DNA from: Ewingella americana ATCC 33852
Lineage (GTDB): Bacteria > Pseudomonadota > Gammaproteobacteria > Enterobacterales > Enterobacteriaceae
Assembly: GCF_000735345.1 (NCBI RefSeq)
Contig: NZ_JMPJ01000067.1
Span: 5-64,004, forward strand
DNA length: 64,000 bases
Direction of reading: 5' to 3'
The position numbers were made by a program, and so were the translations under genes. The notes beneath the pieces are model-generated. The model made no database searches. It was given only the letters and a program-made list of their open reading frames with translations, and was not told the origin of the DNA. This document shows, piece by piece, positions 5,134 to 37,662 of the stretch (the stretch's first letter is position 1; every line of letters begins with the position of its first letter).

Positions 5134-5134
5134 G

Positions 5135-10138: not shown

Positions 10139-10145
10139 CCTGCCC

Positions 10146-10598: not shown

Positions 10599-10669
10599 TG
10601 CGTTCTCTCTGTTAAACATAAGTGGGTGCTTTCGCTTAAATTAATCGTCTATTGCAAGGATTTCCAGCC

Positions 10670-11854: not shown

Positions 11855-11903
11855 ATGTTGAGGGCGTTCAAGTTCTGGGTAACAGGATTTAGTAACACGC
11901 CTT

Positions 11904-11924
11904 AAGGTGATGGCGATCACATTT
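11904..11924 (+). promoter_or_regulatory. CRP-binding site upstream of idnD
   Basis: AAGGTGATGGCGATCACATTT matches the symmetric CRP consensus (GTGA-N6-TCAC core), about 80 bases before the idnD start. This fits catabolite control of a sugar-acid gene. Confidence 0.65.
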
Positions 11925-12003
11925 CCAACTGAGCAAACCCTCTTTACTGGCAGCATTCCTGCTGTAAAACGCAGCGGCAAAGCACCTAATAAAGAGCAAA
12001 AAT

Positions 12004-13038: not shown

Positions 13039-13096
13039 GACGCGGTGAAGCCCGTTAAGAAGGGAGAGAGCCAAAGCTCCCTCCCTTAATTATCTA

Positions 13097-13321: not shown

Positions 13322-13359
13322 TTTTAGATCTCCATATATAAGTTGATGTAGGTGAATCT

Positions 13360-13377
13360 CAGAACAACCCTGTTCTG
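13360..13377. promoter_or_regulatory. Inverted repeat upstream of the microcin-like gene
   Basis: CAGAACA and TGTTCTG form a perfect 7-bp inverted repeat with a 4-base spacer, 39 bases upstream of the peptide start, in an AT-rich region of about 295 bases that contains no supported gene. It may be an operator. Confidence 0.4.
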
Positions 13378-13617
13378 CCCTTCCACTTTAATCATCAATT
13401 TGGAGAGAAAACCAACAAACTATTTACAAACAATAAATTACAGGATTATTCGCGAAACATAATTAGAATGCTCCCTGAGCAAAGATTGCTCAAACCCTAA
13501 CTAAAGACCGCCAGCCAAAGTTCGTCCCTCACTGCCAGCATGATGTCCGTTTTTGGCATGTTCCTCCTATGCCTTCAGGCGCACACTGGCTTCACACCCA
13601 GTAGATGGAGTCCCAAA

Positions 13618-14172
13618 ATGACCCGCAGCGCCTTATTAAATATTGATGTCCAACGCTCCTTCGAGCACCGCCCTTTCTGGCAAGAAGAGGATTTACCTGC
13701 ATTTCAGCAGGCGTTAAACCGACTGATCGACGGCTGCCAAACGCGCGGCGTGCCGGTTATTGATGTGTTCCACGTCAATCCTGAAGGCGTGTTCTCGCTG
13801 GAGTCCGGGCTGGTCGTGCCGATGCCTTTCCTGCGCCATACACCAGCCAAGGTCTTCCACAAGCACGTTCACAACGCCTTGCTGGAGTCCGGCCTGCACG
13901 AATGGCTGCAAGAACAGGGCATTACTCACCTGATTATTGCCGGTGCGCGCACCGAGCAGTGCTGCGAAACCACCACCCGCGTGGCGTCTGATATTGGTTA
14001 TGCCGTGACTTATGTCACTGAAGCGACGCTGACCTTCCCGATGACCCACGCCAACGGCCAAACCTTCTCTACCGATGACATTAAGCGCCGCACCGAGCTG
14101 GTTCTGGCTGACCGGTTTGCCACTATCACTGATGTCGATGGCGCACTGGCGGAGCTTGACCAAGCTGTGTGA
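13618..14172 (+). CDS. Isochorismatase-family cysteine hydrolase
   Basis: 184 residues. The isochorismatase-like catalytic triad is visible: Asp in NIDVQ near residue 9, Lys in VFHKHVHNA near residue 84, and Cys in ARTEQCCETTTRVASDIGY near residue 117. Family members hydrolyse nicotinamide, carbamoylated amines or related amides; the exact substrate cannot be assigned. GGAG precedes the ATG at 13618; an upstream in-frame ATG at 13540 adds residues without family similarity. A GlxA-type regulator follows 39 bases later and probably controls it. Confidence 0.85.
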   Translation: MTRSALLNIDVQRSFEHRPFWQEEDLPAFQQALNRLIDGCQTRGVPVIDVFHVNPEGVFSLESGLVVPMPFLRHTPAKVFHKHVHNALLESGLHEWLQEQGITHLIIAGARTEQCCETTTRVASDIGYAVTYVTEATLTFPMTHANGQTFSTDDIKRRTELVLADRFATITDVDGALAELDQAV

Positions 14173-14211
14173 AGATGGGATCTCGCAGCTCGCTGGCATT
14201 GAGGTTCAACC

Positions 14212-15132
14212 ATGCAGGACGTTTACTTTGTCACGCTTCCGGGCGTGATGGCGCTGGATTTAGTCGGCCCCGGTGAGGCTTTGCGCCTTGCCGGGCAATT
14301 TCGCCTGCATTACATCAGTCCGCTCAATGAGGCCGAAACCTCCACCGGCCTGAAAGTCGGCAGCTTGCAGCCCCTGCCAGCAAGCTTCGCCGCAGGCAGC
14401 ATCATTATTATTCCGGGCGTTAATCATTCGGCGGAGAACTTCGCCACGCCCGCCGCGCTGCAAGTGCGCGACTGGCTCAAACAGCAAAAAAGTGCGATTG
14501 AACAAGGAGATGCGACGCTGGTGTGTATCTGCTCCGGCAGCCTGTTGGCGGGTCAGGCGGGGTTGCTCGACGGCTACCAGTGCACCACTCACCACGACGT
14601 GATCCCGCGCCTGAAATTGCAGGTGCCGAGCGCGCAGGTGAAGGACAACCGTATTTTTGTCGAAGACCGTTTTGTGCTGACCAGCGCGGGCATCACGGCG
14701 GGAATAGACTTGGCGCTGCACATTATTTCCAACCGATTAGGCGCACAGGCCGCGCTGGACGTGGCTCGCGAGATGGTGGTCTATTTTCGCCGCGCGGGAG
14801 ATGACCCACAGCTTTCGCCGTGGCTACGCTATCGCAATCACATTCATCCGGCGTTGCATCGCGCGCAAAACCTGATGTCCGCCACGCCAGAAGCCCCGTG
14901 GCAGTTGGAAGAGATTGCCGCGAAGGCTCACGTCAGCGGGCGGCATCTGACGCGCCTGTTCCGCCAACACCTTGGGATTAGCGTGCGCGATTACCATGAG
15001 CAGCTGCGCATCGCCGTCGCCCAGCAGCGACTGCAACAGGGTTTTGGGGTTGAGAAAGCCGCCCTCGCCGCCGGATTTACCTCCGGCAGGCAGTTACGGC
15101 GGGCACAGGAGAGATGGCCGAGCGCCAACTAA
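14212..15132 (+). CDS. GlxA-family transcriptional regulator (DJ-1/PfpI plus AraC domain)
   Basis: 306 residues. The N-terminal DJ-1/PfpI-like ligand domain (about 1-185) carries the nucleophile-elbow region CICSGSLLAGQAGLLDG and TTHHDV. The C-terminal AraC/XylS DNA-binding domain (about 215-302) has the two helix-turn-helix motifs in LEEIAAKAHVSGRHLTRLFRQHLG and FGVEKAALAAGFTSGRQLRR. It probably activates or represses the adjacent hydrolase gene. Its 3' end overlaps the convergent wecH gene by four bases. Confidence 0.9.
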   Translation: MQDVYFVTLPGVMALDLVGPGEALRLAGQFRLHYISPLNEAETSTGLKVGSLQPLPASFAAGSIIIIPGVNHSAENFATPAALQVRDWLKQQKSAIEQGDATLVCICSGSLLAGQAGLLDGYQCTTHHDVIPRLKLQVPSAQVKDNRIFVEDRFVLTSAGITAGIDLALHIISNRLGAQAALDVAREMVVYFRRAGDDPQLSPWLRYRNHIHPALHRAQNLMSATPEAPWQLEEIAAKAHVSGRHLTRLFRQHLGISVRDYHEQLRIAVAQQRLQQGFGVEKAALAAGFTSGRQLRRAQERWPSAN

Positions 15133-16124
15133 CTGACCCACTTCCGCCGATCAATTTTCGCCAGCAGCACCGCCAACAGCAGGCTGCCGAGCAGGCCGCA
15201 CAAGAACAGGAAGGCGATATTGACCAGCGGCCACTGCGGAAAGCCAATGCGCGCACCGCGCAGGCCGATGATGATCAGCGCGTGAAAGCCGTAAATCGCC
15301 AGCGAATGGCGGGAGATAATTCCTAGCCCCGGCAGCACTCGCGAAGCCAGCGCGTTTTTGCCGATAACGAACAGCGACATCGCCGAGATAAACACCAGCG
15401 GCCCGGTATAAACATAGTAGGTGTCGGCGAAATTCTGGTTGATCAGCGACTGATGGAATGTCCCCCAAGCCACGCCCAATGTGCTAAGGATAAACAGCCC
15501 ACAGGCGACCGGCGTGACGCCGCTCTTCTGCGTATCCATCATGCCAATCGCCCGCCCCATCAGCGCATAGAGCACGTAATAGAAGGTGTTGCCGCCGATA
15601 TACAGGTTGAGAGGCAAAATCGCCACTCGGTCAATACGCAGCGCCGGAAGCTGCGGGTTAGCCAGCACGCCCAGCAACAATCCGGCCACCAGCAGATATT
15701 TCCCCGGCACCTGTTTAACTTTGATCAGCGGCGAAAGCAGGTAAATCACCACGATGGCGTAGAAGAACCAGAGGTGATAAAACACCGGCTTTTGCAGAAT
15801 AAGACGTAAAGAAGGCCAAAAGCCAACATTTGTGAAACTTAAGATGTAAATAAGCGACACCGCGCTGTAGAACAGCAGGCATAAACCAATGCGCAGGAAA
15901 TGGCGTTTCTCCGCGCTTTTCTCGCCGAAGAACAGATAGCCAGAAATCATGAAGAACAGCGGCACGCAGACGCGCGAGGCAGAATTGAGCAGGTTGGCGA
16001 CGCTCCAATCGACGCTGTGGATAGCCGCGAAATTCACCACCTGCGCCGTGCTGGCGTGGATCATCACCACCATCATGCAGGCCACCGCCCGCAAATTGTC
16101 TATCCAGCTGATTTTCTGATTCAT
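15129..16124 (-). CDS. wecH: O-acetyltransferase WecH
   Basis: 331 residues, the same length as E. coli WecH (YiaH). Integral membrane acyltransferase-3 protein with about ten helices. The family motif is at the N-terminus (WIDNLRAVACMMVVMIHAS), with FFMISGYLFFGEKSAEKRHFLRIGLCLLFYS and KPVFYHLWFFYAIVVIYLLSPLI further on, all close to the E. coli protein. WecH O-acetylates GlcNAc residues of enterobacterial common antigen. The C-terminal stop overlaps the convergent regulator gene. Confidence 0.93.
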   Translation of the reverse strand: MNQKISWIDNLRAVACMMVVMIHASTAQVVNFAAIHSVDWSVANLLNSASRVCVPLFFMISGYLFFGEKSAEKRHFLRIGLCLLFYSAVSLIYILSFTNVGFWPSLRLILQKPVFYHLWFFYAIVVIYLLSPLIKVKQVPGKYLLVAGLLLGVLANPQLPALRIDRVAILPLNLYIGGNTFYYVLYALMGRAIGMMDTQKSGVTPVACGLFILSTLGVAWGTFHQSLINQNFADTYYVYTGPLVFISAMSLFVIGKNALASRVLPGLGIISRHSLAIYGFHALIIIGLRGARIGFPQWPLVNIAFLFLCGLLGSLLLAVLLAKIDRRKWVS

Positions 16125-16371
16125 TAAACTCTTTTTTCCTACAATAACCTGCGTTTTCTGACTTTATTAGCAGGTTAGTTAGCTTTGCTCGGGCTAACAA
16201 GCTAAAAGTCGTATTCTCAGAAAGTGCTTAACGCAAAAAGAGGATTGCGCTTAGTTCAAAAAATCGGCAAAATAGCCGCCATTACTGCCCCGCCTGCGTT
16301 ACCCGCCCGGACAGTCCCTATTTTCTTGCTAGTTTCCCATGATCTAGCCTTACGTCTGTGAAATAACAAAC

Positions 16372-17610
16372 ATGCATAACTCTCCAAATACCGCGTCCCT
16401 TTTGGATCGGCGGGCGCTTCTGTTCCCGCTTTGTCTGGTGCTTTTTGAGTTCGCCACTTATATCGGCAACGATATGATCCAACCCGGCATGCTGGCCGTG
16501 GTGGCGAATTTTAACGCTGGCGAAGAGTGGGTTCCGACATCTATGACCGCCTATTTAGCTGGCGGCATGTTCTTGCAGTGGCTGCTCGGGCCGCTGTCGG
16601 ATCGCCGTGGACGTCGCCCAGTGATGCTGGCCGGGGTCGGTTTCTTCATCCTAACCTGTCTGGCGATTCTGTTTGCGCAAAGCATTGAGCAATTTATGGT
16701 GATGCGCTTCCTGCAAGGCATCAGCCTGTGCTTTATCGGCGCGGTGGGCTACGCGGCGATTCAGGAATCCTTCGAAGAGTCGGTGTGCATTAAAATCACC
16801 GCTATGATGGCTAACGTCGCGCTGATAGCGCCGCTGCTCGGCCCGCTGGCCGGTGCCGCGCTGGTGCAGTTCGCGCCATGGGAAACCATGTTCGTGCTAT
16901 TCGCCTTGCTGGCCGCCATCGCCTTCTGGGGCCTGTGGAAATCGATGCCGGAAACCGCGTCGCGCCTTGGCGAAAGCTTCTCCATGAAGAGCCTGTGGAA
17001 AGACTATAAAGAGGTGCTGAAAAACCGCCAGTTCCTCTGCGGCGCGCTGGCCATTGGCTTCGCCAGCCTGCCATTGTTGGCGTGGATTGCTCAGTCACCG
17101 GTGATCCTGATCAGCGGCGAAGGCTTGCCGCCGTTCGAGTACGGCCTGTTGCAAGTGCCGATTTTTGGCGCGTTAATCATCGGCAATATCACGTTGGCGA
17201 AACTGACCGGCAAACGCAGCGTCGAGCAGTTAATCAAGCTGGGTGCCGGGCCAATGGTGGTCGGATTGGTGATTGCCGCAGCCGCCACCTTGCTATCAGG
17301 CCACGCCTACTTCTGGATGACCGCCGGGCTGAGCTTCTACGCCTTCGGCATTGGCGTCGCCAACGCCGGTCTGTATCGCCTGACACTGTTCTCCAGCACC
17401 ATGAGCAAAGGCACGGTTTCCGCCGCAATGGGGATGATCAGCATGGCGGTGTTCACGCTGGGCATTGAGCTGGCGAAAGTGGCTTACGTCGAGGGGGGAA
17501 GCGGATTGTTCAATCTTTTCAACTTGATAAGCGGCCTGTGCTGGTTAGCGCTGGTCACCGTGTTTATTCGCCGCCGTCAGGTGTTTGTCGCGCCGAATAG
17601 CGTGGTGTAG
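16372..17610 (+). CDS. mdfA: Multidrug efflux MFS transporter MdfA
   Basis: 412 residues with 12 transmembrane helices. Closely follows E. coli MdfA, for example [19 protein letters not shown] containing the membrane-embedded Glu, [20 protein letters not shown] and the motif [17 protein letters not shown]. MdfA is a proton-coupled exporter of chloramphenicol, lipophilic cations and Na+/K+. A strong terminator follows 6 bases after the stop. The 247-base upstream gap shared with wecH carries the divergent promoters. Confidence 0.95.
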
Positions 17611-17615
17611 CAGAC

Positions 17616-17645
17616 AAAGGTCCGCAATAGCGGACCTTCTTTTTA
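17616..17645. terminator. Terminator between mdfA and aldB
   Basis: AAAGGTCCGC and GCGGACCTT arms flank a short AATA loop and end in TTCTTTTT. It serves mdfA, and the A-rich side may also serve the convergent aldB. Confidence 0.8.
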
Positions 17646-17648
17646 TGC

Positions 17649-19187
17649 TTAAAACAGTCCCATCGGCTTGTCGGAATAGCTGACCAGCAGGCACTTGGTC
17701 TGCTGATAATGGTCCAGCATCATCTTATGGGTTTCGCGCCCGATGCCCGACTGTTTATAGCCGCCGAAGGCCGCGTGGGCCGGATAGGCATGGTAACAGT
17801 TGGTCCAAACGCGCCCGGCCTGCAAGTTCCGCCCCATGTGATAAGCCACGCTACCGTCGCGGCTCCACACTCCGGCTCCAAGCCCGTAAGCCGTATCGTT
17901 GGCAATCGCCAGCGCTTCATCCATATCTTTAAAGGTAGTAACCGCCAGCACCGGCCCGAAGATCTCCTCTTGGAACACCCGCATGTTGTTTTTACCCAGC
18001 AAAATAGTCGGTTGCAGGTAATAACCTTCATTGAGTGAGCCTTCCAGTTTCTTGCGCGCGCCGCCGGTCAGCACCTGAGCGCCCTCTTTCTTGCCGATTT
18101 CGATATAGTCCAGAATGGTTTTCATCTGGCCCGCCGACACCTGCGCGCCCATCTGAGTATCCGCGTCCAGCGGGTTGCCGGTGCGAATGGCTTCCACACG
18201 TTTTATCGCCCTTTCCATAAAGCGTTCGTAAATCGACTCTTGCACCAGTGCGCGACTCGGGCAGGTACAGACCTCGCCCTGATTGAAGGCGAACAGCGTG
18301 AAGCCCTCCAGCGCCTTGTCGAAGAAGCTGTCCTCTTTATCCATCACGTCAGCAAAGAAGATGTTCGGCGACTTACCGCCCAGCTCCAGAGTGGCCGGGA
18401 TCAGGTTCTGCGCGGCGTATCCGGCAATCTGCTGGCCCACTTCGGTGGAGCCGGTAAAAGCCACTTTGGCGATGCGTTTGGAGGTCGCCAGATATTCGCC
18501 AATCTCGCCACCCGCGCCGTTAACCACGTTAATCACCCCGGCGGGCAGAATGTCTTTCAACAGATCCATCAGCAGCAACACAGAAAGCGGGGTCAGCTTG
18601 GCGGGTTTCATCACAATGCAGTTACCCGCCGCCAGCGCCGGGGCCATCTTCCAGCAGGCCATCAGCAGGGGGAAGTTCCACGGAATGATCTGCGCCACCA
18701 CGCCCAGGGGCTCGTGGAAATGGTAAGCCACGGTTTCGCTGTCGATTTCACTGATGCCCCCTTCCTGCGCGCGAACGCAAGAGGCGAAATAGCGGAAATG
18801 GTCGATAGCCAGCGGCACGTCGGCCCCCGAGGTTTCGCGGATCGGCTTGCCGTTATCCCATGTCTCCGCATTGGCCAGCAGCTCGAGATTTTGCTCCATG
18901 CGATCAGCGACTTTCAGCAGCAGATTGGCGCGCTCCTGCACCGAGGTCTTGCCCCACGCCCCTTTGGCGGCATGGGCGGCGTCCAGCGCCAGCTCAATAT
19001 CATCTTTGCTCGAGCTGGCAACTTCGCACAGCGCCTCGCCGGTAATAGGCGTCAGGTTGGAATAGTATTCGCCCTTCACCGGCGCTACCCACTCGCCGCC
19101 GATAAAGTTGTCATAACGTTTTTTCAGTTTCAGCGGGAAACCATACTCTTCAGGTTTTACGGCGTGCGGGGTCTTGTCATAAGCCAT
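17649..19187 (-). CDS. aldB: Aldehyde dehydrogenase AldB
   Basis: 512 residues, identical in length to E. coli AldB and very similar throughout. NADP-dependent oxidation of acetaldehyde and related aldehydes in the cytoplasm. The catalytic Cys is in [17 protein letters not shown], the general-base Glu in [12 protein letters not shown], and the NAD site includes [17 protein letters not shown] precedes the ATG. In E. coli the gene is under RpoS, CRP and Fis control; no comparable set of sites is obvious in the 179-base upstream gap. Confidence 0.95.
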
Positions 19188-27609: not shown

Positions 27610-28218
27610 TTAACGCTGAACGGGAGAGAGGCGCGACGGCTGCTGATTGCTGATATGAGCAATCAGCCCGGTAATAGAAAGCACCATGGTGGAACGGACG
27701 ATTTGCTGATAGCGCTGCTGCTGCATGGCAATCAAGGATTCGTCGGCTTCGCCGGGTTTAAGGAAGGTTGGCGCCGGGGGAAGCGCGGCTACGCAGTGCA
27801 GCTCGCCAAAGGGGCCAAGGATTTCGTCGTCGGTGAAACGATAGTCTTCACCGTCGTAATTTAACTCTTCGCGCAGGGCCATCAGCAGCTCGGCGTCTTC
27901 ATATTCATGGCGGCTGATCACGCCCAGCGCATAAATCAGTTTGAGCCTGACGGACAGGTCGCCCAGCGGACCATTGCCGGTCAATAAAGGCTCGACGGCG
28001 TATTTCACCGCGTAATCGTCTTTGCGGAATACCTGAATCACCAGAATATCCAGCGCTTCAGCCAGTAATTCTACGGCAGTCATCAAGAAGCTGCGCACAG
28101 ATTTGCCTGCGTTCAGTTTTTCCAGTACCCGGTTTTCAAACGCCTGTGCTTTTTCCATCGAGTTACTTACGTTAAGAATCGCGTCATGAATTACGGCTTC
28201 TGATGTGTCCATAGTCAT
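27610..28218 (-). CDS. mtlR: Mannitol operon repressor MtlR
   Basis: 202 residues. Core blocks match E. coli MtlR: FENRVLEKLNAGKSVRSFL, VFRKDDYAVKYAVEPLL, GPLGDLSVRLKLIYALGVI and DDEILGPFGELHCVAALPP. MtlR dampens mannitol operon expression in enterobacteria; it has no classical DNA-binding domain. The N-terminal 20 residues differ from E. coli; the start may be at 28218 or at the second ATG at 28212. It is last in mtlADR. Confidence 0.93.
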   Translation of the reverse strand: MTMDTSEAVIHDAILNVSNSMEKAQAFENRVLEKLNAGKSVRSFLMTAVELLAEALDILVIQVFRKDDYAVKYAVEPLLTGNGPLGDLSVRLKLIYALGVISRHEYEDAELLMALREELNYDGEDYRFTDDEILGPFGELHCVAALPPAPTFLKPGEADESLIAMQQQRYQQIVRSTMVLSITGLIAHISNQQPSRLSPVQR

Positions 28219-28239
28219 CCGTGAGTCCCAGTTGTGTTT

Positions 28240-28271
28240 GAAGCTACAACGGCGCGAACCGCTGTAGCTTC
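28240..28271 (-). terminator. Hairpin between mtlD and mtlR
   Basis: GAAGCTACA and TGTAGCTTC arms form a 9-bp stem, with no strong T-run following on the minus strand. It could cause partial termination or protect mRNA ends. Confidence 0.4.
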
Positions 28272-28297
28272 ATCACTTGGGCATTAATTTTTGAAAA

Positions 28298-29446
28298 TTA
28301 GTGCTTTTTCTCGTAGATGCTCACGGCTTGCGCGACAACTTCGCCGTCTTCTGGCAGGCCTGAAACCTGTGCCAGCGCCGCTTTTGGACCGACTTTTTCC
28401 AGCAGTTCCGCCCACTCTTTAGCTTGCTGATCTTCGTCACTGCGGTAGTGCATGGCAGCGGCGATACCGATCACCAAATTATTGTGCGGCAGATTATATT
28501 CCAGTGTACCCAGCAATGGCTTAATTAAACGGTCGCCCGCGCTCAGTTTACGCAATGGCTGGCGGCCAACGCGCTCCACGTCGTCATGCAGGTACGGGTT
28601 TTCGAAACGGGTGATGATTTTTTCGATGTAAGCGAAGTGCTTCTGTGGGTCAAAGCCGTAACGGTTGATCAGCACCTGACCACTCTCTTCCATCGCGCCG
28701 CGCACCACCAGACGGATTTTCTCGTCGAGGATCGCATCACGGATGGTGGCATGACCTGCCTGCTGGCCGAGATACGCGGTGATCGCGTGGCCGGTGTTCA
28801 GGGTAAACAGCTTGCGCTCAACGAACGCCATCAGGTTATCGGTTGGCTCCATACCGGCGATAGTCGGCAGCGGACCTTTGAACTGGGTCTGATCGACAAT
28901 CCACTCGCTGAAGGTTTCAACCGTCACTTCCAGCGGATCAGTGGTGCCCGCCGCAGCCGGAGGCACGATACGGTCAACAGCTGAGTCGACGAAGCCGACG
29001 TGCGCCTCAACCCAGGCTTTCTCATCTTCTGGCAGCGCGTTGAACACGTGCTGTTTGAACTGGCTGGTGCCACGCACCATGTTTTCACAAGCGATGATGT
29101 TCAGCGGAGACTCATTGCCCTGCTGGTGACGCAGAACCAGACCTTTCGCCACGTTCGGCGCGATTTTCTCCAGCACGGTTGGGCCAACGGCGGTGGTCAC
29201 TAGGTCGACTTTAGCGATCAGGTCGATAGCTTCCTGACCTGCGCTGTTGACCGCGTTGACGTTTTTCACTGGCTCAACGCTGGCCTTCTCGCCAACCACG
29301 TGCACGTCGTAACCATGACGGCTGTTTAATGCTTCCAGCAGCACCGGGCTGACGTCAGCGAAGGTTAATTCAACTTGTGCATCGGCCAACAGTTTACCGA
29401 TAAATCCACGGCCAATATTGCCCGCGCCAAAATGTAGTGCTTTCAT
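28298..29446 (-). CDS. mtlD: Mannitol-1-phosphate 5-dehydrogenase
   Basis: 382 residues, the length of E. coli MtlD. Converts mannitol 1-phosphate to fructose 6-phosphate with NAD+. The N-terminal nucleotide fold is [13 protein letters not shown]. Catalytic region: [19 protein letters not shown]. It follows mtlA across an 87-base gap that contains a strong hairpin. Cytoplasmic. Confidence 0.96.
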
Positions 29447-29475
29447 AACAATATTTCCTTCGAGTCCGAATCAAC

Positions 29476-29499
29476 AAGCGGGTCTCGAAAGACCCGCTT
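29476..29499 (-). terminator. Intercistronic hairpin between mtlA and mtlD
   Basis: AAGCGGGTC and GACCCGCTT form a 9-bp stem around a 6-base loop, with no downstream T-run. It probably modulates relative mtlA and mtlD levels by attenuation or 3' end protection. Confidence 0.5.
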
Positions 29500-29533
29500 A
29501 GTAATACTCTCGACCGTTTCCCTTGTTGGCTGA

Positions 29534-31447
29534 TTAGCCGCGAAGGATGGTCAGAACCTCTTCAACGCTGGTGGTGGTGGCCAGACGGTCAATCACGCCA
29601 TCTTCGTCCAGCGCCGTGGTCAGCTTAGTGATCACGTTGATGTGCTCATTATTACGCGCCGCGATACCAATAACCAGACGGGCTGAGTCATCTTCGTCAT
29701 CGCCCCAGCGAATGCCCGCCGGGTACTGGCAGAACACGATACCGGTTTTCAGCACGCGGTCTTTCGCTTCGATAGTCCCGTGCGGTACTGCGATAGATTC
29801 GCCGAGGTAAGTCGAGGTCAGCTGCTCACGAGCCAGCATCGCTTCAACGTATTCCTGCTGAACGTAACCGCCTTTCACCAGTTGCTCACCGGCGAAGCGG
29901 ATCGCGTCTTCTTTGTTGCTCGCCTGCAAGCCGAGGAAGATGTTGCTTTCGCTCAGGCGGAACAGGTGTTCGTTCTCTTGCTCGCTCACCAAGCTGTCGC
30001 TCAGCGTAGTGTTCACTTTCTCTTTGTACTGGCTGGATTTGTTCACTTCAACCAGACGGGCAGTCAGGTCAGTGTACAGGCCGCTGTCGAGGAAGTTGGT
30101 CAGTGAAATGTGCTGTGCGTGTGGCACTTGGCGCATTGCACGTTCGGTCAGGTCACGGTGGGTGATAACCAAGTCAACATCGTCCGGCAGGCTGTTAATC
30201 GCGCTGTTAGTGACGCTGATGTTAGTCAGGCCAGCATCCTGCACTTTCTTACGCAGCACGCCTGCACCCATGGCACTTGAACCCATACCTGCGTCACAAG
30301 CCACGATGATTTTACGCACGGTAGACAGGTCGCCAGCCACGCCAGCGGTAGAAGCTTTGCCGCCTTTAGACTGTGCTTTCATGTCTTGAACGCGGCGCGT
30401 TGCTTCGTCCAGATCGTCGCCCTCTTTCACTTTGCTGGTTTTCAGCAGGAAAGCAGAGACGATGAAGGAGACCGCGAACGCCGCCACGATTGCCGCGATG
30501 TTAGCGAAGTAAGTGCCTTTTGGCGTCATCGCCAGAACCGCGAGGATAGAGCCCGGAGACGCTGGAGAAACCAGGCCGCCGTTCAATACGGTCAGGGTGA
30601 ACACGCCAGTCATACCGCCCAGAATTACCGCCAACAGCAGGCGCGGGTTCATCAGAACGTATGGGAAGTAAATTTCGTGGATACCACCGAAGAAGTGGAT
30701 AATTGCCGCGCCGCCAGCTGACTGTTTAGCGCTGCCACGACCGAAGAACATATAGGCCATCAGTACACCCATACCCGGACCTGGGTTAGCTTCGATCAGG
30801 AAGAAGATTGATTTACCGGTTTCAGTCGCCTGCTGGATACCCAGTGGAGAGAAGATACCGTGGTTGATGGCGTTGTTGAGGAACAGGATTTTCGCTGGTT
30901 CAACAAAGATAGAAGCCAGTGGCAGCAGGTTATGGATAACCATGATGTGCACGCCAGCCGCCAATACTTTGGACAGTGCTTCAACCAGCGGGCCAATAGC
31001 TAAGAAGGCGAGGATCGCCAGCAGCATACCGATGATACCGGCCGAGAAGTTGTTAACCAGCATCTCGAAGCCGCTTTTGATTTTGCCGTCGACCAGACGG
31101 TCAAAGCGCTTGATACACCAGCCGCCCAGCGGACCTGCAATCATCGCGCCGAGGAACATCGGCATGTCTGCACCGACGATAACGCCCATGGTGGTGATAG
31201 CACCTACCACGCCGCCACGGTCGCCGCCAACCAGACGTCCACCGGTGAAACCGATCAACAATGGCAGCAGGTAAGTGATCATCGGGCCAACCAGCTTCGC
31301 TAACGTTTCGTTAGGCAACCAACCCGTTGGGATGAACAGCGCCGTGATGATACCCCAGGCAATAAATGCCCCGATGTTAGGCATCACCATGTTACTCAGG
31401 AAGCGGCCAAAGTTTTGAACTCCGACCTTAACGTCTGGTGAAAACAT
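29534..31447 (-). CDS. mtlA: PTS mannitol transporter subunit IICBA
   Basis: 637 residues, equal to E. coli MtlA. Domains in order: membrane IIC (about 1-340, with GGIHEIYFPYV), IIB (about 375-465, phosphocysteine in IIVACDAGMGSSAMG) and IIA (about 490-637, phosphohistidine in YLGESIAVPHGTIEAKD). Imports and phosphorylates mannitol. The ATG at 31447 gives the family length; a GTG at 31456 is possible. The promoter region with several CRP sites lies upstream. Confidence 0.96.
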   Translation of the reverse strand: MFSPDVKVGVQNFGRFLSNMVMPNIGAFIAWGIITALFIPTGWLPNETLAKLVGPMITYLLPLLIGFTGGRLVGGDRGGVVGAITTMGVIVGADMPMFLGAMIAGPLGGWCIKRFDRLVDGKIKSGFEMLVNNFSAGIIGMLLAILAFLAIGPLVEALSKVLAAGVHIMVIHNLLPLASIFVEPAKILFLNNAINHGIFSPLGIQQATETGKSIFFLIEANPGPGMGVLMAYMFFGRGSAKQSAGGAAIIHFFGGIHEIYFPYVLMNPRLLLAVILGGMTGVFTLTVLNGGLVSPASPGSILAVLAMTPKGTYFANIAAIVAAFAVSFIVSAFLLKTSKVKEGDDLDEATRRVQDMKAQSKGGKASTAGVAGDLSTVRKIIVACDAGMGSSAMGAGVLRKKVQDAGLTNISVTNSAINSLPDDVDLVITHRDLTERAMRQVPHAQHISLTNFLDSGLYTDLTARLVEVNKSSQYKEKVNTTLSDSLVSEQENEHLFRLSESNIFLGLQASNKEDAIRFAGEQLVKGGYVQQEYVEAMLAREQLTSTYLGESIAVPHGTIEAKDRVLKTGIVFCQYPAGIRWGDDEDDSARLVIGIAARNNEHINVITKLTTALDEDGVIDRLATTTSVEEVLTILRG

Positions 31448-31620
31448 AAAACGCACCCCTATTGATACGCGCTAACAATAAGAGCGCGTGATATCTGTTA
31501 ATTATCGGTGACGGTTAATACGGTTTTCGTGCCACTGCTTTAAAAATCCGTCCGTCGAATTGCTGTCTGCGAGGCGGACTCTACCACGTGATTATGGCAC
31601 CGCGTAGACGCTGCGCATTA

Positions 31621-31797
31621 CGTGAGCAAGATCACGCAGCCCACCCCGTGACACCCCACTTTTTAGTGACTTTCATCACAAAACACTCCTGAAACTTAGG
31701 TACAACGAACAAATTTTACGCGTTATCGCTTTTAAAACGTGACTAAAATCACATTTTTCCTTCGTCGCTTTGTTATTAAAATGTGATATTCATCACA
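31621..31797. promoter_or_regulatory. Cluster of CRP-binding sites upstream of mtlA
   Basis: Four GTGA-N6-TCAC type sites are visible: CGTGAGCAAGATCACG (31621-31636), GTGACTTTCATCAC (31666-31679), GTGACTAAAATCAC (31739-31752) and the perfect TGTGATATTCATCACA (31782-31797). Multiple CRP sites are known for E. coli mtlA. Confidence 0.8.
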
Positions 31798-31860
31798 ATT
31801 TATTTTTCGACGACGGCAAAAATTATGTTCAAAAAGCATCCAGCCGTGCGAAGGCCGTCT

Positions 31861-31983
31861 ATGAATCAGTTTACGAGGGGGATGTTGAAAGAAAATTACG
31901 GTTGGGGGGAGTGGGAATACGCTCAGGACAGCGGCTATGGGCGCAATCCCCACTCTTATATGGCTTGCTATTACAAACCTTAA
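31861..31983 (+). CDS. Possible small protein upstream of the effector gene
   Basis: 40 codons plus stop from an ATG at 31861, with AAGG seven bases upstream. The product is rich in aromatic residues (NYGWGEWEYAQDSGYGRNP). It resembles no family known to me and could be a remnant of the insertion event rather than a gene. Confidence 0.2.
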   Translation: MNQFTRGMLKENYGWGEWEYAQDSGYGRNPHSYMACYYKP

Positions 31984-32053
31984 ATATTTTTTTGGTTTGG
32001 AATGATGCCGAGTATGATGCTAGTGACGACAAAATGACCTCAAGGATTGAGTG

Positions 32054-34333
32054 ATGAAAACGGAACTACCCGTGGACGGGTATGCGTCAGCCCACGCGCT
32101 GATGGAAGCAATGCAAGGAACGAACGGCGATACGTTCTGGCTGGCGAAAGCAGAAGGTCACTGGCACGGCGGCATCCACCTCAAAGACAGCATTTCCGGA
32201 ACGTCCGGTTTTCGAAGCATGACCGACGGCCATATCGTGGCCTACCGGCTGAATGACGACTATCTGAGAGCCCCTAGCGGGCCAAAAATGTTGAAATTCA
32301 CTTCTACATTCATCCTCATCAAATCGACCTGCACACCCGACGCTGACAAACCCGCGGACGCGCTAGACTTCTATACCCTGTGGATGCAGCTCTCTCCGCT
32401 GTCAAAATACGGCGGTGATAGACCTGCTTTAGTCACCGCGAGCAGCCTAAAGGTCCGACAGAACAGCGCGGAGAGTCGCTGGGCGCGCGGCGGCATCCCC
32501 GCAGGCCATTCGGTGAATGCTTCCGGCGAGAATCTCTCCCTCTACGGCGTGCCTGTCGACAGCGGCGGTACCCTGCCTCGCGGCACCGAGGTAGAAATAT
32601 TGGAGGAGGCCAGTTTCTTCCTGAAGCGGCGCGCTTCGCCTTTTGTATTTGTCCGGGTGATTTCCGTCCCGTCGGGTAAAAACTCGTCGCTTGCGGTGGG
32701 CGAAACAGGCTGGGTGTCTGGACTGGGTAAGTACCTGAAACGCCAGCCCTCAACTATTCCCGGTTGGATGCAAAAGGCGAAAGCCCGGGGCGAGTTTAAT
32801 CAGGTTGTGACACTGGCCGGTGATGACCTTATCGCAGTGGCCGCGGGTGAGAAGATTGGCCATGCCGGAAACAATGAGTCGCCGGGCGTCGCGCCCTGTG
32901 CGTTTTCACACCTTGAGATATTTAGCCAAGACAGCCGCTTTCCCGATTTTGTGGAGAACAAAGCGGGCCTGAGTGTGGGCGAGAAGCTGCTCAGGTCAGA
33001 GGCGGGAAAAACGCTGTGGCAGTACCGCGAACGGGAAAATCGCTTTGTGGCGATGGAAGGAGAGTCGGCCCGCCAGACCAGTGACCGCCAATTTACCAAG
33101 CTGACCGACGCGAAGAAGACCGAGGCTGACGGCCGGCTCTGGTACTTTATTGAGAAAGAAAACGGCTGGCTCCCTGCGTCGGATGTGACGGAAATCGAAC
33201 ATTACGATTTGGCTGAACGTGGCTTTGTCATGCTGGTTCAGGAGGAGCCGCCGACGGACGTCACCAAAGGATTTCAGGAAAGCTGGCTCCGTGAGGCTTA
33301 CGGGAAGCTTGAAGTACATTCGGCGAAGCAGAATGGGATGTATTCACTGAGCCTGACGGAGTACTACCAGAAACGACTGCGCAAGTGGGACTTAGACGGT
33401 GACCAGAAACTCTCCGGGTACGAGATATGGCGCGGTTTGCACTGTCGTGAAAGCTGGTGCCGTGACATCGTGCAGCGGCTGTTGGTGAAACACCATAGCG
33501 AATGGTTGCACGACGCGGACTCCGCGCGATGGCGGCCGAGGCTGGCAGAGTTGTCGAAACGTTACCCAACGATCGCGCAGTACAATCACGCGCACATCAA
33601 CGCACTGGTATGGATGAAAGATGTGCCGGAAATTAGAAGCGGAGAGGCTCTGTGGCACATGCATCCTTTGGTATTTTTGGATGCAATCACAAGAAAATTT
33701 AGCGATACAATTGATTTCCAGACAAGCTTGGGTATTTACAAAATATCTAAAAAATCAGCCGATTTAATTTTAAAAGCTGAAGGTTACCAAAAATCTCCTT
33801 ATGTACCTCAAGGTAGTAATGCCAGTGGCGTCACAATTGGATATGGTTATGATTTAGGACAGCAAACCGTAGCTAAAATGCGAGCCATGCTTACTGGCTA
33901 TTTTACGGAGGAGCAGCTAACTCGTTTGGAACAAAGTATTGGACTGAAAGGTGATAATGCTTTGGCTTTTATCCCTTCATTTAGTGATATAACAATTAGC
34001 AAAGAGGAAGCGACGTCTTTAGCTATGAAAATGAAATCTAAATATGCACAAATAGTCGTGGACACGTATCCGGAAGTCTTGAACACGCACCCTCATTGTC
34101 AAGGAGCCATGCTTTCACTAGTAATCAATCGTGGTACATCCTTTGTTAAACCCAATGTTGCTTCGCGCATTGAAATGAAGAATATTCATGATGACTTTAT
34201 TTCAGGAAATTTGAGTGACATTCCAAATCAGTTTCGCTCAATGAAGAGACTTTGGGTTGGTAAGGGGTTAGACGGGTTAATAACCCGCAGAGAAGATGAA
34301 GCCAAATTATTCGAGGAGGGATTATCTCAATGA
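32054..34333 (+). CDS. Multidomain peptidoglycan-targeting effector with pesticin-like muramidase C-terminus
   Basis: 759 residues, no signal peptide. In order: an M23-like part (WHGGIHLKD near 38-44, then DGHIVAYR; a second piece SHLEIFSQD near 285-293) with an SH3-like insert (about 165-228); a linker; an EF-hand loop DLDGDQKLSGYE (about 446-457); the motif WHMHP near 534; and a C-terminal GH24/pesticin-type muramidase (about 560-755) with the likely catalytic Glu in LILKAEGY near 576 and SGVTIGYGYDLGQ at 591-603. This N-terminal architecture recurs in proteins associated with type VI secretion. The M23 metal ligands look incomplete, so that part may serve only in delivery. GC falls sharply after about 33,640. 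Two LprI-like genes follow, the first overlapping by four bases. T6SS delivery is inference. Confidence 0.8.
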   Translation: MKTELPVDGYASAHALMEAMQGTNGDTFWLAKAEGHWHGGIHLKDSISGTSGFRSMTDGHIVAYRLNDDYLRAPSGPKMLKFTSTFILIKSTCTPDADKPADALDFYTLWMQLSPLSKYGGDRPALVTASSLKVRQNSAESRWARGGIPAGHSVNASGENLSLYGVPVDSGGTLPRGTEVEILEEASFFLKRRASPFVFVRVISVPSGKNSSLAVGETGWVSGLGKYLKRQPSTIPGWMQKAKARGEFNQVVTLAGDDLIAVAAGEKIGHAGNNESPGVAPCAFSHLEIFSQDSRFPDFVENKAGLSVGEKLLRSEAGKTLWQYRERENRFVAMEGESARQTSDRQFTKLTDAKKTEADGRLWYFIEKENGWLPASDVTEIEHYDLAERGFVMLVQEEPPTDVTKGFQESWLREAYGKLEVHSAKQNGMYSLSLTEYYQKRLRKWDLDGDQKLSGYEIWRGLHCRESWCRDIVQRLLVKHHSEWLHDADSARWRPRLAELSKRYPTIAQYNHAHINALVWMKDVPEIRSGEALWHMHPLVFLDAITRKFSDTIDFQTSLGIYKISKKSADLILKAEGYQKSPYVPQGSNASGVTIGYGYDLGQQTVAKMRAMLTGYFTEEQLTRLEQSIGLKGDNALAFIPSFSDITISKEEATSLAMKMKSKYAQIVVDTYPEVLNTHPHCQGAMLSLVINRGTSFVKPNVASRIEMKNIHDDFISGNLSDIPNQFRSMKRLWVGKGLDGLITRREDEAKLFEEGLSQ

Positions 34334-34803
34334 AAAAATTAATACTATTATCTTTAATTAGTTTTTCTGCTGTAGGCTACGAAAATTGTACAAGTGGGGA
34401 TACTGCCGCATTGGAAAAATGCTCTTATAATAATTATCAATCAGAGGATAATCTTCTCAACTACTTGTATAAAAGCATAGTTACATCTTTCCCTGAGATA
34501 AAAGATGAAGTAAAGAGAACTCAGATCCTATGGATCAAAGCTAGGGATGAAATTTGCAAATATAGTCCTGATGACGGTGCCGAGTATAAGATAAATCAGA
34601 ATGCATGTTTGTATCAGCAAACATACGAGAGAAATCGTGAACTAAAAGCAATAATCGACAAAGAGACCAATAAAGATGTAGCCCCAAAAATAGAGGCGCA
34701 GCCCGAATGGGATAACTACATTAAAAATCACTGTGACTTTATGGAGAAACAATTCTCAGATAATGAATGTAAAGGCAGAAACCAGTTTCTTCATTCTGAC
34801 TAG
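34330..34803 (+). CDS. LprI-type lysozyme-inhibitor-like protein, likely immunity protein
   Basis: 157 residues. A hydrophobic N-terminus (KKLILLSLISFSAVGY) suggests export to the periplasm. The LprI N-terminal-domain (DUF1311) pattern is visible: paired Cys in YENCTSG and LEKCSYNN, then ILWIKARDEICKY and ACLYQQTYERNRELK. LprI of Mycobacterium inhibits lysozyme. The start overlaps the effector stop (ATGA), as expected for a co-translated immunity protein. An additional Cys-containing tail (about 130-157) is not part of the usual domain. AT-rich like the toxin C-terminus. Confidence 0.78.
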   Translation: MKKLILLSLISFSAVGYENCTSGDTAALEKCSYNNYQSEDNLLNYLYKSIVTSFPEIKDEVKRTQILWIKARDEICKYSPDDGAEYKINQNACLYQQTYERNRELKAIIDKETNKDVAPKIEAQPEWDNYIKNHCDFMEKQFSDNECKGRNQFLHSD

Positions 34804-34877
34804 TAGATGAGTATTAAGTTGGCAGAACTAAATCACTTAAGATCAGTTTAATATTCTCGCAATGTTTTTTGAAAAAA

Positions 34878-34906
34878 GCAAAACCATCTTTTAAGGTGGT
34901 TTTGCT
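34878..34906. terminator. Long hairpin between the two LprI-like genes
   Basis: The arms AGCAAAACCATCTT and AAGGTGGTTTTGCT pair over 14 positions with one G-U. The T-run lies on the minus-strand side (TTTTTTC), but the stem itself ends in TTTTGC on the plus strand. It probably separates the two immunity genes into distinct transcripts. Confidence 0.55.
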
Positions 34907-35021
34907 AAGTCAGATAACTGCTTAACTAAGATAGTTCAACCTTATGGGAACAGTCATCAAATCTGAGCTAAAACAAATATATCAACGTTATACTTTTTAA
35001 CTCAAGGAAGGGGTATTTACA

Positions 35022-35393
35022 ATGATAATTCCAAAGAAAGCGACATTTGTACTAATAACGATAACTTTTTTTACATATGCAACATCTAAAGATGAAGAGA
35101 TGAATTATCTTGATATCAAAAATAAATATACACAAGCAGATCACGAGCTAAATGACTTGTATACTATCCAAATGCAGAAATATAAAAAAGAAGGTGGCGA
35201 TTTGTATGGACAAGCCTTATCTAAAGATATATTCCTGAAAAAATCCCAACAAATATGGATCAGATTTAGGGATACAAGTTGTGATTATGAAACATACGAA
35301 TCCCAAACCGGAACTGGGTATCAAAGCATATATACCCAATGTCTTCTTGATAAAACCATTGAGCGCATAAAATACCTAAAAGAAAACAATTAG
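35022..35393 (+). CDS. Second LprI-type lysozyme-inhibitor-like protein
   Basis: 123 residues. The N-terminus (KATFVLITITFFTYATS) is a signal-peptide-like segment. The mature part has the LprI pattern YTQADHELNDLYTIQM, then SQQIWIRFRDTSCDYE and IYTQCLLDKTIERIKYL. The first family Cys pair is missing (the segment reads SKDEEMNYLDIK), while the second pair is kept. AAGGAAGG precedes the ATG. GC of the line at 35041-35100 is 17 of 60. It is a second, diverged candidate immunity protein, or protects against a related enzyme. Confidence 0.75.
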   Translation: MIIPKKATFVLITITFFTYATSKDEEMNYLDIKNKYTQADHELNDLYTIQMQKYKKEGGDLYGQALSKDIFLKKSQQIWIRFRDTSCDYETYESQTGTGYQSIYTQCLLDKTIERIKYLKENN

Positions 35394-35462
35394 AATTCAT
35401 TCTTGGGGTGTACGTGAAATTTTTTTCGGCGTATCAGGAGAAGGCAAGGCGAGAAAAAATCT

Positions 35463-35490
35463 CAGGCCCCCCGATCGAGGAGCCTGAAGG
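35463..35490 (-). terminator. Terminator after the DsbA-like gene
   Basis: On the minus strand TTCAGGCTCC and GGGGCCTGAG arms form a stem, followed by ATTTTTTC. It lies just downstream of the stop at 35504. Confidence 0.75.
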
Positions 35491-35503
35491 TGTTAGCTGC
35501 GGG

Positions 35504-36295
35504 TTATTTGCCCTGCGCTTTCACGATGGCGGCCTGCAACTCTTCGGCAGACACGGCACCTGGCAGTACAGTGGTGTTTGCAGCGGTTGCGCCAGAGGTT
35601 GGCATCACCACGAAGCCCGGCGTGCCGCCGAAGCCTAAAGTACGCGCCAATTCGTCATTGGAGGCGAGAGCTTCATGGGTCGCTTTCAGCTGGTCTGCGC
35701 TTGGCGTGCTGGCTTTGGCTGCTTTCACCGCAGCGGCGATGTCCGCGTTGGTCAGCTTGCCTTCGTCATGGCCAGTGCGATAAAGGCTGTTGTGATAGTC
35801 GAAGTAAGCCTGTGAGCCCTTCTCTTTCCACACTGCCATGCCGGTTTCAGCAGCGGTGATTGACTCTTTCCAGCGATCGCCGAAGATTGGCCACTCTTTA
35901 AACACGAAACGCACGGTTGGGTTGGCTTTCACAGTCTGCTCAACCAGTGGCGCCATACGACTGCAATACAGACATTGGTAATCGAAAAACTCCACAAACG
36001 CGACTTTGGCATCTTTCGGGCCATAGCTTGGCGTCGCTGGATCATTCACCAGCGCTTTAGCGTTTGCCAGCACCGCGTCCTGAGCCTGTTGCTGTTGCTG
36101 ATCAGCCTGCTGCGCCTGCAACTTCTGGCTGACCTGCACCAGAATCTCTGGGTGCGCGACCATGTAATCAGCCGCAATCTTGCCAATCGCTTCTTGCTGA
36201 GCTGGAGTGAAATCCGCGGTGGTGGCATCAGCCGCCATCGCCAGCGTAGGGGTCATTACCAGTGCAGCCAGCAAAGTCATCGTCTGACGTTTCAT
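35504..36295 (-). CDS. DsbA-family thiol:disulfide oxidoreductase (Com1-like)
   Basis: 263 residues. Signal peptide (KRQTMTLLAALVMTPTLAMA), then a Gln-rich helical segment (about 35-75) and a DsbA/thioredoxin domain (about 85-260) with the active site CLYC in EFFDYQCLYCSRM and a cis-proline in FGGTPGFVVM. The N-terminal helical region resembles Com1/ScsC-type oligomerising DsbA proteins. Periplasmic disulfide formation or isomerisation. Convergent with the effector island; no dsbB-like gene is next to it. Confidence 0.87.
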   Translation of the reverse strand: MKRQTMTLLAALVMTPTLAMAADATTADFTPAQQEAIGKIAADYMVAHPEILVQVSQKLQAQQADQQQQQAQDAVLANAKALVNDPATPSYGPKDAKVAFVEFFDYQCLYCSRMAPLVEQTVKANPTVRFVFKEWPIFGDRWKESITAAETGMAVWKEKGSQAYFDYHNSLYRTGHDEGKLTNADIAAAVKAAKASTPSADQLKATHEALASNDELARTLGFGGTPGFVVMPTSGATAANTTVLPGAVSAEELQAAIVKAQGK

Positions 36296-36429
36296 TGATG
36301 GATCCTTAATAGATGAAGTCGGTAAACAGAGAAATGTATTGCTGAAAAGTAGAGTAAATCGCAGCCAGTTGCAGGTGGAAAATTGTTATTTTTTATAAAT
36401 TTACAGATCCTGACGCTGGCGCAAGAGAC

Positions 36430-36459
36430 AAAAAAGCCACGAGGTTTCCCACGTGGCCT
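36430..36459 (-). terminator. Terminator after yiaF
   Basis: On the minus strand GCCACG and CGTGGC arms lie around a 9-10 base loop and are followed by TTTTTTG. Confidence 0.75.
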
Positions 36460-36494
36460 GATTATTTAACAATAATTCAGCGAGTTACCAGAAA

Positions 36495-37217
36495 TTAATG
36501 GCTGTAATCGCCTTGCGCGACTTTCTGCGCACTGAGCAGCGTCTGCTGTTTGCCCACCAGATTCGACATCATGGTGTTGTACTGCGTTGCCTGCTGCTGA
36601 GTCGGGAATTGCACGCCGCCATTGGCGAAAGCAACCTGATTGCCCTGCTGTTGCAGGTAATCGCCCACGGCAATAATGTCCTGAGTGAAGCTGCTGAGTG
36701 CAGGCACCAGTGGGGTCAGAACGTTAGCCGGTTCGGTCACGACATTGGAATAAACCTGACCATAAACCGCTTTCAAATCATCCGGCTGCTTCAACGCGGC
36801 CATCGCGGTATCCGCTTTATTCTTCGAGTCACGAATTTGCGCACTCAGAAGATTTAACGAACCCGCCGCCTGTTGCAGCGCAGAGCGTTGCGTCATGTAG
36901 TCCTGCGGGGCACGAATCTGACCAATGGCGCTTACCGCTGGGACCAGACCGCCTTCAACCGACGACTTCAACTGACGCGAGAACGACAGAATGATGCCGT
37001 AATCGTTAGCATAATTGCCGAACTTCTGTTTTTGATCTTCGCTCAGCGACGGCAGATTCTGCCCGCTGCGCATCACGGTATTTTGCAAATAATCGATAAA
37101 AGCTTTGCGTTGCTCCGGCTCTTTATCGCCGCATGCCGTGAGTTGAAACACGACCAGCAATGCCACAAACGGCGCTAACCAACGCCCGAATGCCCTGCTT
37201 CTGATCCCTACAGCCAT
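36495..37217 (-). CDS. yiaF: DUF3053 lipoprotein YiaF
   Basis: 240 residues. An N-terminal hydrophobic segment ends in the lipobox LTACG (Cys near residue 29), so the mature protein is a lipoprotein. The body matches E. coli YiaF: QRKAFIDYLQNTVMRSGQNLP, YVTQ-like QDYMTQRSALQQAAGSLN and GDYLQQQGNQVAFANGGVQFPT. Predicted mostly helical. YiaF has been suggested to contribute to envelope integrity; function unproven. A terminator follows. Confidence 0.9.
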   Translation of the reverse strand: MAVGIRSRAFGRWLAPFVALLVVFQLTACGDKEPEQRKAFIDYLQNTVMRSGQNLPSLSEDQKQKFGNYANDYGIILSFSRQLKSSVEGGLVPAVSAIGQIRAPQDYMTQRSALQQAAGSLNLLSAQIRDSKNKADTAMAALKQPDDLKAVYGQVYSNVVTEPANVLTPLVPALSSFTQDIIAVGDYLQQQGNQVAFANGGVQFPTQQQATQYNTMMSNLVGKQQTLLSAQKVAQGDYSH

Positions 37218-37662
37218 GAGTCCTGACTCCTGATTTCAATGTTCTTTTTACCGGCCAGTTCCGTGCCGATCTGGGCTTTCCATGCGTGTAATAGAATAGA
37301 ACATCTGGGGTGAGAACGCTTTTTAAAAAAGCGGGCAAAAGGGTTTAAATTCAACTTCAACGTCAAAACCGTGGGCCGCCACGCAAACTGTTCTGCTCCT
37401 GCCTCTGAAAAGGGGGAGGGATAAAACCAACGTCAAAATCCTAAACAAAACAAACTGAAACGGCTCGGTTGAGAAGCCAGTAAGCCGCATTCAGAAGTGA
37501 CGCCGAGCAAGAGGTGGAAAACCGCGTGGTAGTTTGCGTTTCAACGCAATGTCTTAAATTTAAAACTAAAATTTGCAATCAAAAAAAAAGAGGCCAGGTC
37601 ACCAGACCCAGCCCCCCCTCAACACTTTACCTTCAGCTTTCTAAAAGCTGAAAATCCCCTGC
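37218..37662. other. Intergenic region between yiaF and glyS
   Basis: About 445 bases with no supported gene. It contains a purine/pyrimidine-biased hairpin-like segment near 37395-37420 (CTCCTGCCTC then GGGGGAGGG) and, at its glyS end, the glyS terminator. Confidence 0.5.
37580..37613 (-). terminator. Terminator after glyS
   Basis: On the minus strand GGCTGGGTC and GACCTGGCC pair over 9 positions (two G-U wobbles) around TGGT and are followed by CTCTTTTTTTTT. Confidence 0.8.

Follow-up and report, generated by a model that had tools for sequence, protein, structure and literature searches.

One question posed by the genome of Ewingella americana ATCC 33852 (assembly GCF_000735345.1) is why a single predicted wall-degrading toxin should be followed by two genes of the LprI family, a family described as lysozyme inhibitors and likely immunity proteins of type VI secretion systems (T6SSs) (PMC8867033; PMC12135965). 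The stretch analysed, termed here the window, comprises 64,000 nucleotides of contig NZ_JMPJ01000067.1, and the genes concerned encode, on one strand, the 759-residue protein P0001 and the two LprI-family proteins P0002 and P0003. A previous sequence-only reading had proposed for them an orphan effector-immunity module between mtlA and a dsbA-like gene, composed of a pesticin-type muramidase with an N-terminal architecture of a kind that occurs with T6SSs, two LprI genes and an AT-rich tail. The three genes are real and were correctly placed (Table 1), the gene of P0002 overlapping that of P0001 by four bases, and the assignment as a peptidoglycan-targeting T6SS effector with LprI immunity, which we would retain as a prediction, fits the comparisons set out below; the second LprI gene is better read as left over from a toxin subtype that was displaced. 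Very probably the island holds a polymorphic T6SS cargo effector of the WHIX class, its immunity protein P0002, and P0003, an immunity protein left over from a replaced toxin that we term subtype B, the present one being subtype A.

The WHIX class was described by Fridman et al. in 2025 as T6SS cargo effectors with a WHxxxH motif, a two-part conserved region and diverse wall-targeting C-termini (PMC12135965). Residues 1-545 of P0001 fit this class by motif, two-part layout and class description, the criterion of the WHIX paper itself being an RPS-BLAST match to the WHIX profile at E 1e-6 and 70% coverage. W37, H38 and H42 are kept in all 39 readable rows of a 40-row WHIX alignment, and since the conserved region starts at about residue 29, leaving no N-terminal extension of more than 99 residues, P0001 would belong to subclass I. 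The likeness to the class as described extends to the peptidoglycan-targeting C-terminus, the DUF1311/LprI immunity gene downstream and the T6SS in the genome; the present locus differs in being an orphan rather than vgrG-linked and in having two LprI genes of apparently different histories. The same paper reports pesticin-lysozyme-like C-termini in 448 unique WHIX proteins, among the largest groups, as well as DUF1311/LprI-type neighbours. At the nine nearest loci in public genomes the carrier region is common to all, mostly with other C-termini and other neighbours, so the WHIX gene is polymorphic.

The toxin domain of P0001 is matched at residues 569-674 by the Pfam family Pesticin (PF16754; 38.4 bits against a cut-off of 25.8, E 1.5e-9), and the predicted catalytic residues E576, T594 and D600 are equated with pesticin E178, T201 and D207 (PMC9927483) by motif and spacing, not by letter alignment, the T-to-D spacing being 6 in both. 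VgrG3cp of Vibrio cholerae, for which T6SS delivery and peptidoglycan degradation have been shown, likewise has a pesticin-type domain with the T201 and D207 positions kept; it is fused to VgrG together with a peptidoglycan-binding part, whereas here the domain is WHIX cargo, and only those two positions are conserved in it, whereas P0001 has the glutamate too (PMC9927483).

That carrier and toxin have separate histories is apparent from their relatives. Compared with a protein from Mixta theicola (L070, the same region as L018), the carrier shows 53.7% and the toxin 28.6% identity; compared with one from Pantoea sp. 1.19 (L073, at the L023 locus) the figures are 29.3% and 80.8%, and compared with one from a 6-kb plasmid of Enterobacter sp. 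JBIWA005 (L027) they are 36.5% and 83.6%. The best step in third-position G+C content falls at codon 536, inside the conserved stretch ALWHMHPLVFLDA, the value being 0.668 before codon 531 and 0.332 after. The opposite identities and the G+C step together indicate that a native-like carrier acquired its AT-rich toxin-immunity end at ALWHMHPLVFLDA; as judged from sequence, the toxin end has clearly been exchanged at this conserved junction, where WHIX ends.

Both LprI proteins match Pfam LprI (PF07007), P0002 at 43.2 and P0003 at 54.0 bits against a cut-off of 22, yet the two can be aligned with one another over 49 residues only (34.7% identity). The best relatives of P0002 (66.0% and 63.5%) lie directly behind two close subtype-A toxins with the same four-base overlap. 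By contrast, the best relatives of P0003 in a first set (66%, 62% and 51%) lie behind WHIX effectors with a pesticin-like toxin of subtype B, which is about 30% identical to the P0001 toxin over some 70-100 residues. A wider search with P0003 among 391 genomes gave ten non-self matches with E below 1e-30, nine of which were examined as loci, and subtype B stands upstream of the P0003-like gene in eight of these nine. In seven of the nine loci the toxin end reads RFNxRKxYL, and the pattern FN-x-RK-x-YL, which was drawn up after those ends had been seen, is encoded just before the immunity start in these seven and also in the window, as FNSRKGYL. Over 29 bases the start context of P0003 matches six of the loci at 20-25 positions (best 25 of 29), compared with a mean of 11.7 and a best of 20 for 556 unrelated start contexts, none of which exceeded 20. 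A tblastn search of the island gaps with toxin C-termini gave matches at the level of chance, save for the subtype-B end before P0003, which scored only E ~0.05 each time but at the homologous place. Taken together, the relatives of P0003 behind subtype B and the subtype-B end before P0003 are most simply explained if a subtype-B effector once stood here and that its toxin end was displaced, such that P0003 is probably the leftover immunity protein of that toxin and not a second inhibitor of the present one. In another genome (G072, locus L072) a subtype-A-like toxin gene is followed by another immunity-like gene and, about 600 bp on, by a broken P0003-like gene.

Effector displacement leaving orphan immunity genes has been described for the V. 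cholerae T6SS (Kirchberger et al. 2017, PMC5361080). There, as is proposed here, a new effector-immunity module replaces the effector and the old immunity gene stays, a 3' effector remnant appearing in one step of the model; those events concern T6SS clusters, whereas the present case concerns an orphan island of an enterobacterium and a WHIX carrier.

Several observations weigh against this account of the LprI genes. The pairing of P0002 with subtype A is based on two independent loci, and the subtype-A-like toxin of L072 (52% identical) precedes a different protein of 180 residues instead of a P0002-like gene. Among the nine P0003-like loci the subtype-B toxin is intact in L084, L090 and L091; its frame is broken in L085, L087, L088 and L092, it is reduced to its last 57 codons in L086 and it is missing from L089, and the results for L087 and L088 are identical. 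Two of the six loci compared over 29 bases reach just 20 positions, equal to the best control. Finally, the P0003 frame is intact with its own start, and P0003 may have a present role against subtype A.

One alternative is that both LprI proteins confer immunity to the same toxin, either by dosage or as a two-part inhibitor, and we regard it as unlikely. It draws on the facts that P0002 and P0003 are both intact members of one family on the same strand behind the toxin, and that in the T6SS on contig C18 of the same genome, too, two LprI genes stand behind a pesticin-like effector. Set against this are the short alignable region of the two proteins, the nearest relatives of P0003 (51-66%) behind the other toxin subtype, with the end of that toxin in the P0003 start region, and the close subtype-A loci L027 and L023, which in the stretches read have a P0002-like gene only.

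The secretion route has to be sought outside the island. Neither the window nor the fetched stretches of the nine nearest loci, some of them short contigs, yielded a T6SS gene. The sequence-only reading would have been undermined by a genome without any T6SS; elsewhere in the genome there are three VipB genes, on contigs C18, C37 and C52, together with six matches to the VgrG family, four of which fall in frames of 700-900 residues. T6SS presence is judged here by VipB and VgrG, whereas the criterion in PMC12135965 is nine of eleven core genes. By that paper more than 98% of WHIX-bearing genomes have a T6SS, and many, but not all, WHIX genes lie near VgrG or PAAR. Of 294 sampled genomes of the family, 52 have WHIX profile matches, and VipB is found in 51 of these against 118 of the 242 without WHIX (Fisher p 3e-13, which overstates independence because the genomes are related); with ten weak WHIX matches set aside the counts become 41 of 42 and 128 of 252. 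The one WHIX genome of the 52 without a VipB match (G019, with a fragmentary WHIX) counts against the T6SS assignment.

The cluster on C52 is the best guess for a delivery partner of P0001. At four stretches with T6SS-linked WHIX genes (L069, L071, L075 and L077), vgrG lies directly upstream of the WHIX gene or at most two genes away, and among the four own VgrGs that of C52 is the closest to the WHIX-linked VgrGs in all four (47-50%). The C52 Hcp is identical at 92% and 90% to the Hcp of L071 and L075, and a 749-residue WHGGIH protein is encoded next after the C52 VgrG. On the other side stands the lack of a vgrG near the P0001 gene. WHIX is described as loading on the VgrG tail (PMC12135965), and the tails of the own VgrGs (HFTFS, EGTA, DPDG and GSSS) do not have the SR end found behind three of the four WHIX-linked VgrGs. 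Given these tails and no vgrG nearby, the spike partner is a guess.

Could P0001 instead be a diffusible pesticin-like bacteriocin? Colicins are often plasmid-borne and pesticin itself is a bacteriocin, the toxin module is shared with a 6-kb mobilizable plasmid, and no T6SS gene lies nearby. The carrier, however, is a WHIX region, strongly tied to T6SS genomes and found behind vgrG in T6SS clusters, and inspection of the island by eye revealed no lysis gene, such that we consider a bacteriocin highly improbable.

In the proposed working of the locus, the WHIX region of P0001 would attach to a VgrG spike of one of the cell's own T6SSs by way of the spike's C-terminal tail, most likely that of C52, which would fire the effector into the periplasm of a neighbour, where the pesticin-type domain would cut the glycan strands of the cell wall and so may kill. 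P0002 would bind the toxin and shield the producer in its own periplasm. The toxin has no evident signal peptide and the N-termini of P0002 and P0003 are hydrophobic, as seen by eye, a combination that would suit a toxin delivered by a T6SS to act in the periplasm. P0003 would have been left behind when the subtype-B toxin end of an older effector gave way to subtype A and, if still expressed, may guard against relatives still carrying subtype B.

Pairs of a peptidoglycan hydrolase beside a signal-peptide LprI protein are known from Salmonella Dublin SPI-19 (PMC8867033) and from a Pantoea ananatis hcp island (PMC3942780), the hydrolases being muramidases with LysM or peptidoglycan-binding parts; these pairs differ from the present one in being short, without WHIX, and inside T6SS clusters. 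The C18 cluster of E. americana contains (L016, 7780-9604) a 295-residue protein with peptidoglycan-binding and pesticin-like parts ahead of its two LprI genes, an unrelated effector locus.

Related modules recur in other settings. Three Enterobacter plasmids of 6.0-6.7 kb (L124, L125 and L027, being pJBIWA005_5, _6 and _7) have WHIX-carrier-like genes with a neighbour gene; they come from one strain, are MOBP mobilizable and belong to the same replicon cluster, with different effector ends. A plasmid of the same size class from Escherichia coli (pRHB39-C14_4, L126) also has a WHIX-carrier-like gene and a neighbour gene. It is as if small mobilizable plasmids acted as carriers of T6SS toxins, and the literature, as represented by titles and the starts of abstracts, gave nothing on T6SS effectors carried by such plasmids. 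The subtype-A pair of L023/L073 is followed (about 10982-13465) by pieces resembling transposase genes and by a loose WHIX end accompanied by a different toxin and immunity gene. In L069 (genome G210, 799-18999) the stretch read shows, after a vgrG, an array in which three WHIX effectors bear different toxin ends; it also contains a transposase-like pair and loose cassettes of toxin ends and immunity genes. Phage contigs (L030-L033) encode proteins about 33% identical to residues 590-754 of the toxin domain, probably endolysins.

A second question concerns the nature of the WHIX carrier itself. M23-like, SH3-like and EF-hand parts had been taken as extra domains of the effector; this view did not hold, since all of them lie inside the common WHIX carrier region and the M23 ligands are altered. 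The metal ligands of M23 peptidases are H-x-x-x-D and H-x-H. Across 40 aligned WHIX regions the motif order is that of M23, H-x-x-x-(D), then a YxHL-like motif, then H-x-(H), but the readable rows have H-x-x-x-H and H-x-E instead, the second ligand having changed from D to H and the third from H to E, and an SH3-like insert separates the two halves. The WHIX profile matches that of a set of WHGGIH cousins (hhalign probability 97.3, E 1.6e-11, 87 columns), which themselves match Pfam M23 below the cut-off (E 2e-4 to 1.4e-3). In an M23 scan of 22 aligned proteins, five of which are WHGGIH cousins, six match at E up to 5, and a second look at structure with a predicted model gave as its best row 8s3m, an M23-related lytic endopeptidase, a weak fold row. 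Two WHGGIH proteins with sub-threshold M23 matches are encoded in the E. americana genome, at L064 14162-16411 (C52, directly behind vgrG) and at L122 1096-3297 (C65).

Other comparisons were negative. Pfam M23 (PF01551) has no match in P0001 or in any of ten WHIX N-terminal parts scanned alone, and when P0001, the N-terminal profile, the profile of the WHGGIH cousins and the toxin domain were searched against the sequences of solved structures, no convincing relative turned up. Each WHIX half was also compared singly, profile against profile, with three M23 domains of the same genome, and neither reached significance (P 0.028 and 0.016): shuffled controls for the first half scored up to 17.8 against a real score of 17.5, and for the second the real score of 17.1 exceeded all 30 shuffles (maximum 15.2). 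The link to M23 thus stems from the WHIX-cousin profile match, the sub-threshold matches of the cousins, the conserved residues and the weak fold row, and support for an M23 fold with an SH3 insert in WHIX is bridged or weak. We suggest tentatively, as a possibility that is on balance doubtful, that WHIX is a domesticated M23 (LytM) peptidase with an SH3-split fold, its ligands changed from H/D/H to H/H/E and the catalytic-side histidine kept, which would still bind metal and whose old substrate groove would grip the VgrG tail like a peptide or act as a cryptic peptidase after delivery. The deep cavity described for WHIX in 2025 (PMC12135965) would then be this old groove. In the main text of that paper the terms zinc, metal, EF-hand and SH3 never occur, and M23 is named only for separate N-terminal extensions.

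The M23-like resemblance also allows P0001 to be imagined as a double-bladed effector in which the M23-like part acts as a further toxic enzyme and the two LprI proteins neutralise one domain each, all the more since a WHIX subclass II that has M23 domains of its own is described (PMC12135965). This is very unlikely: the M23-like part of P0001 is the WHIX domain itself, with no added N-terminal extension and with an altered ligand set, the kin of P0003 stand behind a pesticin-like subtype and not an M23 domain, and in the periplasm of E. coli WHIX by itself is reported to lack toxicity (PMC12135965).

The EF-hand-like loop is canonical in form, with D446 in 39 and E457 in 34 of the 40 rows, and its positions 3 and 5 vary across the family. 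Binding of Ca2+ by this loop is plausible in some WHIX members, and regulation by Ca2+, raised in the earlier reading, is speculation. Another effector combines EF-hand, M23-like and endolysin parts in a different order (PMC12992299).

The borders of the island follow from four genus mates (G164, G247, G024 and G294), all without the three island genes, against which positions 28001-37500 of the window were compared by blastn. In G164, the closest, the aligned identity is 97.2% for 28001-31911 and 95.1% for 35453-37313, and 34 bp separate the two; the same site holds about 78 bp in G247, about 98 bp in G024 and about 630 bp of other sequence in G294, which places the island at about 31912-35452. 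Of the six genus genomes compared, that of ATCC 33852 included, five have the dsbA-like gene; it is unmatched in the sixth (G295), which is hence uninformative on the site. The flanking genes, named by eye from their translations, are mtlA (29534-31456, minus strand) and the dsbA-like gene (35504-36295, minus strand). Comparison of two stretches at the island ends revealed no repeat, direct or inverted, exceeding 6 bp, and there were no useful mobile-element ends. Scans for promoters (2 found, 6.3 expected from shuffles) and terminators (8 found, 5.2 expected) were left unused. A possible truncated gene upstream, a 94-codon frame with a second frame at 31770-32054, has no Pfam or NCBIfam match, no relative in the compared loci and none convincing on plasmids or in the own genome; it was dropped as an island part, its DNA being largely native intergenic sequence common to the genus mates. 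Least credible is that the island is a decaying, functionless remnant, as its orphan location and the several related subtype-B toxin frames broken elsewhere might suggest, given three intact frames, a preserved four-base overlap and the presence of all listed catalytic and motif residues.

Table 1. Positions of the island and its features in the window
Feature	Position	Strand	Basis
Inserted island, ~3,541 bp, 45% G+C, upstream of mtlA	31912..35452	.	blastn against four genus mates; boundary and base composition
P0001, predicted WHIX-type T6SS cargo effector, 759 aa	32054..34333	+	domain matches, alignments
WHIX carrier region, residues 1-545, native-like 56.6% G+C	32054..33688	+	alignment with eight relatives bearing different C-termini
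WHGGIH motif (WHxxxH of WHIX), residues 37-42	32162..32179	+	position and conservation
SH3-like insert, residues 122-232, separating two M23-like halves	32417..32749	+	predicted model of residues 1-310, structural second look
HLE, residues 286-288 (H-x-E where M23 has H-x-H)	32909..32917	+	H286 and E288 in 40/40 rows
EF-hand-like loop DLDGDQKLSGYE, residues 446-457	33389..33424	+	position and conservation
Module boundary ALWHMHPLVFLDA, residues 532-544	33647..33685	+	third-position G+C step, conserved stretch
Pesticin-type muramidase (toxin subtype A), residues 546-759; likely catalytic E576, T594, D600	33689..34330	+	Pfam, motif
P0002, LprI-family, 157 aa, proposed cognate immunity (imm1)	34330..34803	+	Pfam; relatives behind subtype-A toxins
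Scar: codons F-N-S-R-K-G-Y-L and bases up to P0003 start, like last subtype-B toxin codons	34996..35021	+	locus comparison
P0003, LprI-family, 123 aa, proposed leftover immunity to toxin subtype B (imm2)	35022..35393	+	Pfam; relatives' context

The WHIX class, its pesticin C-termini and its LprI neighbours were known already; what would be added here is a record of toxin displacement and a lead on the origin of WHIX. If the M23 reading were true, it would explain why WHIX occurs almost only in wall-targeting effectors, and it would provide both a molecular origin for the export domain of thousands of effectors and a test of cargo loading. The locus itself appears as a well-resolved case of T6SS weapon evolution, in which the toxin end has been swapped, the old immunity gene kept and codons of the old toxin left in place, and from which we would expect the two LprI proteins to protect against different toxins.

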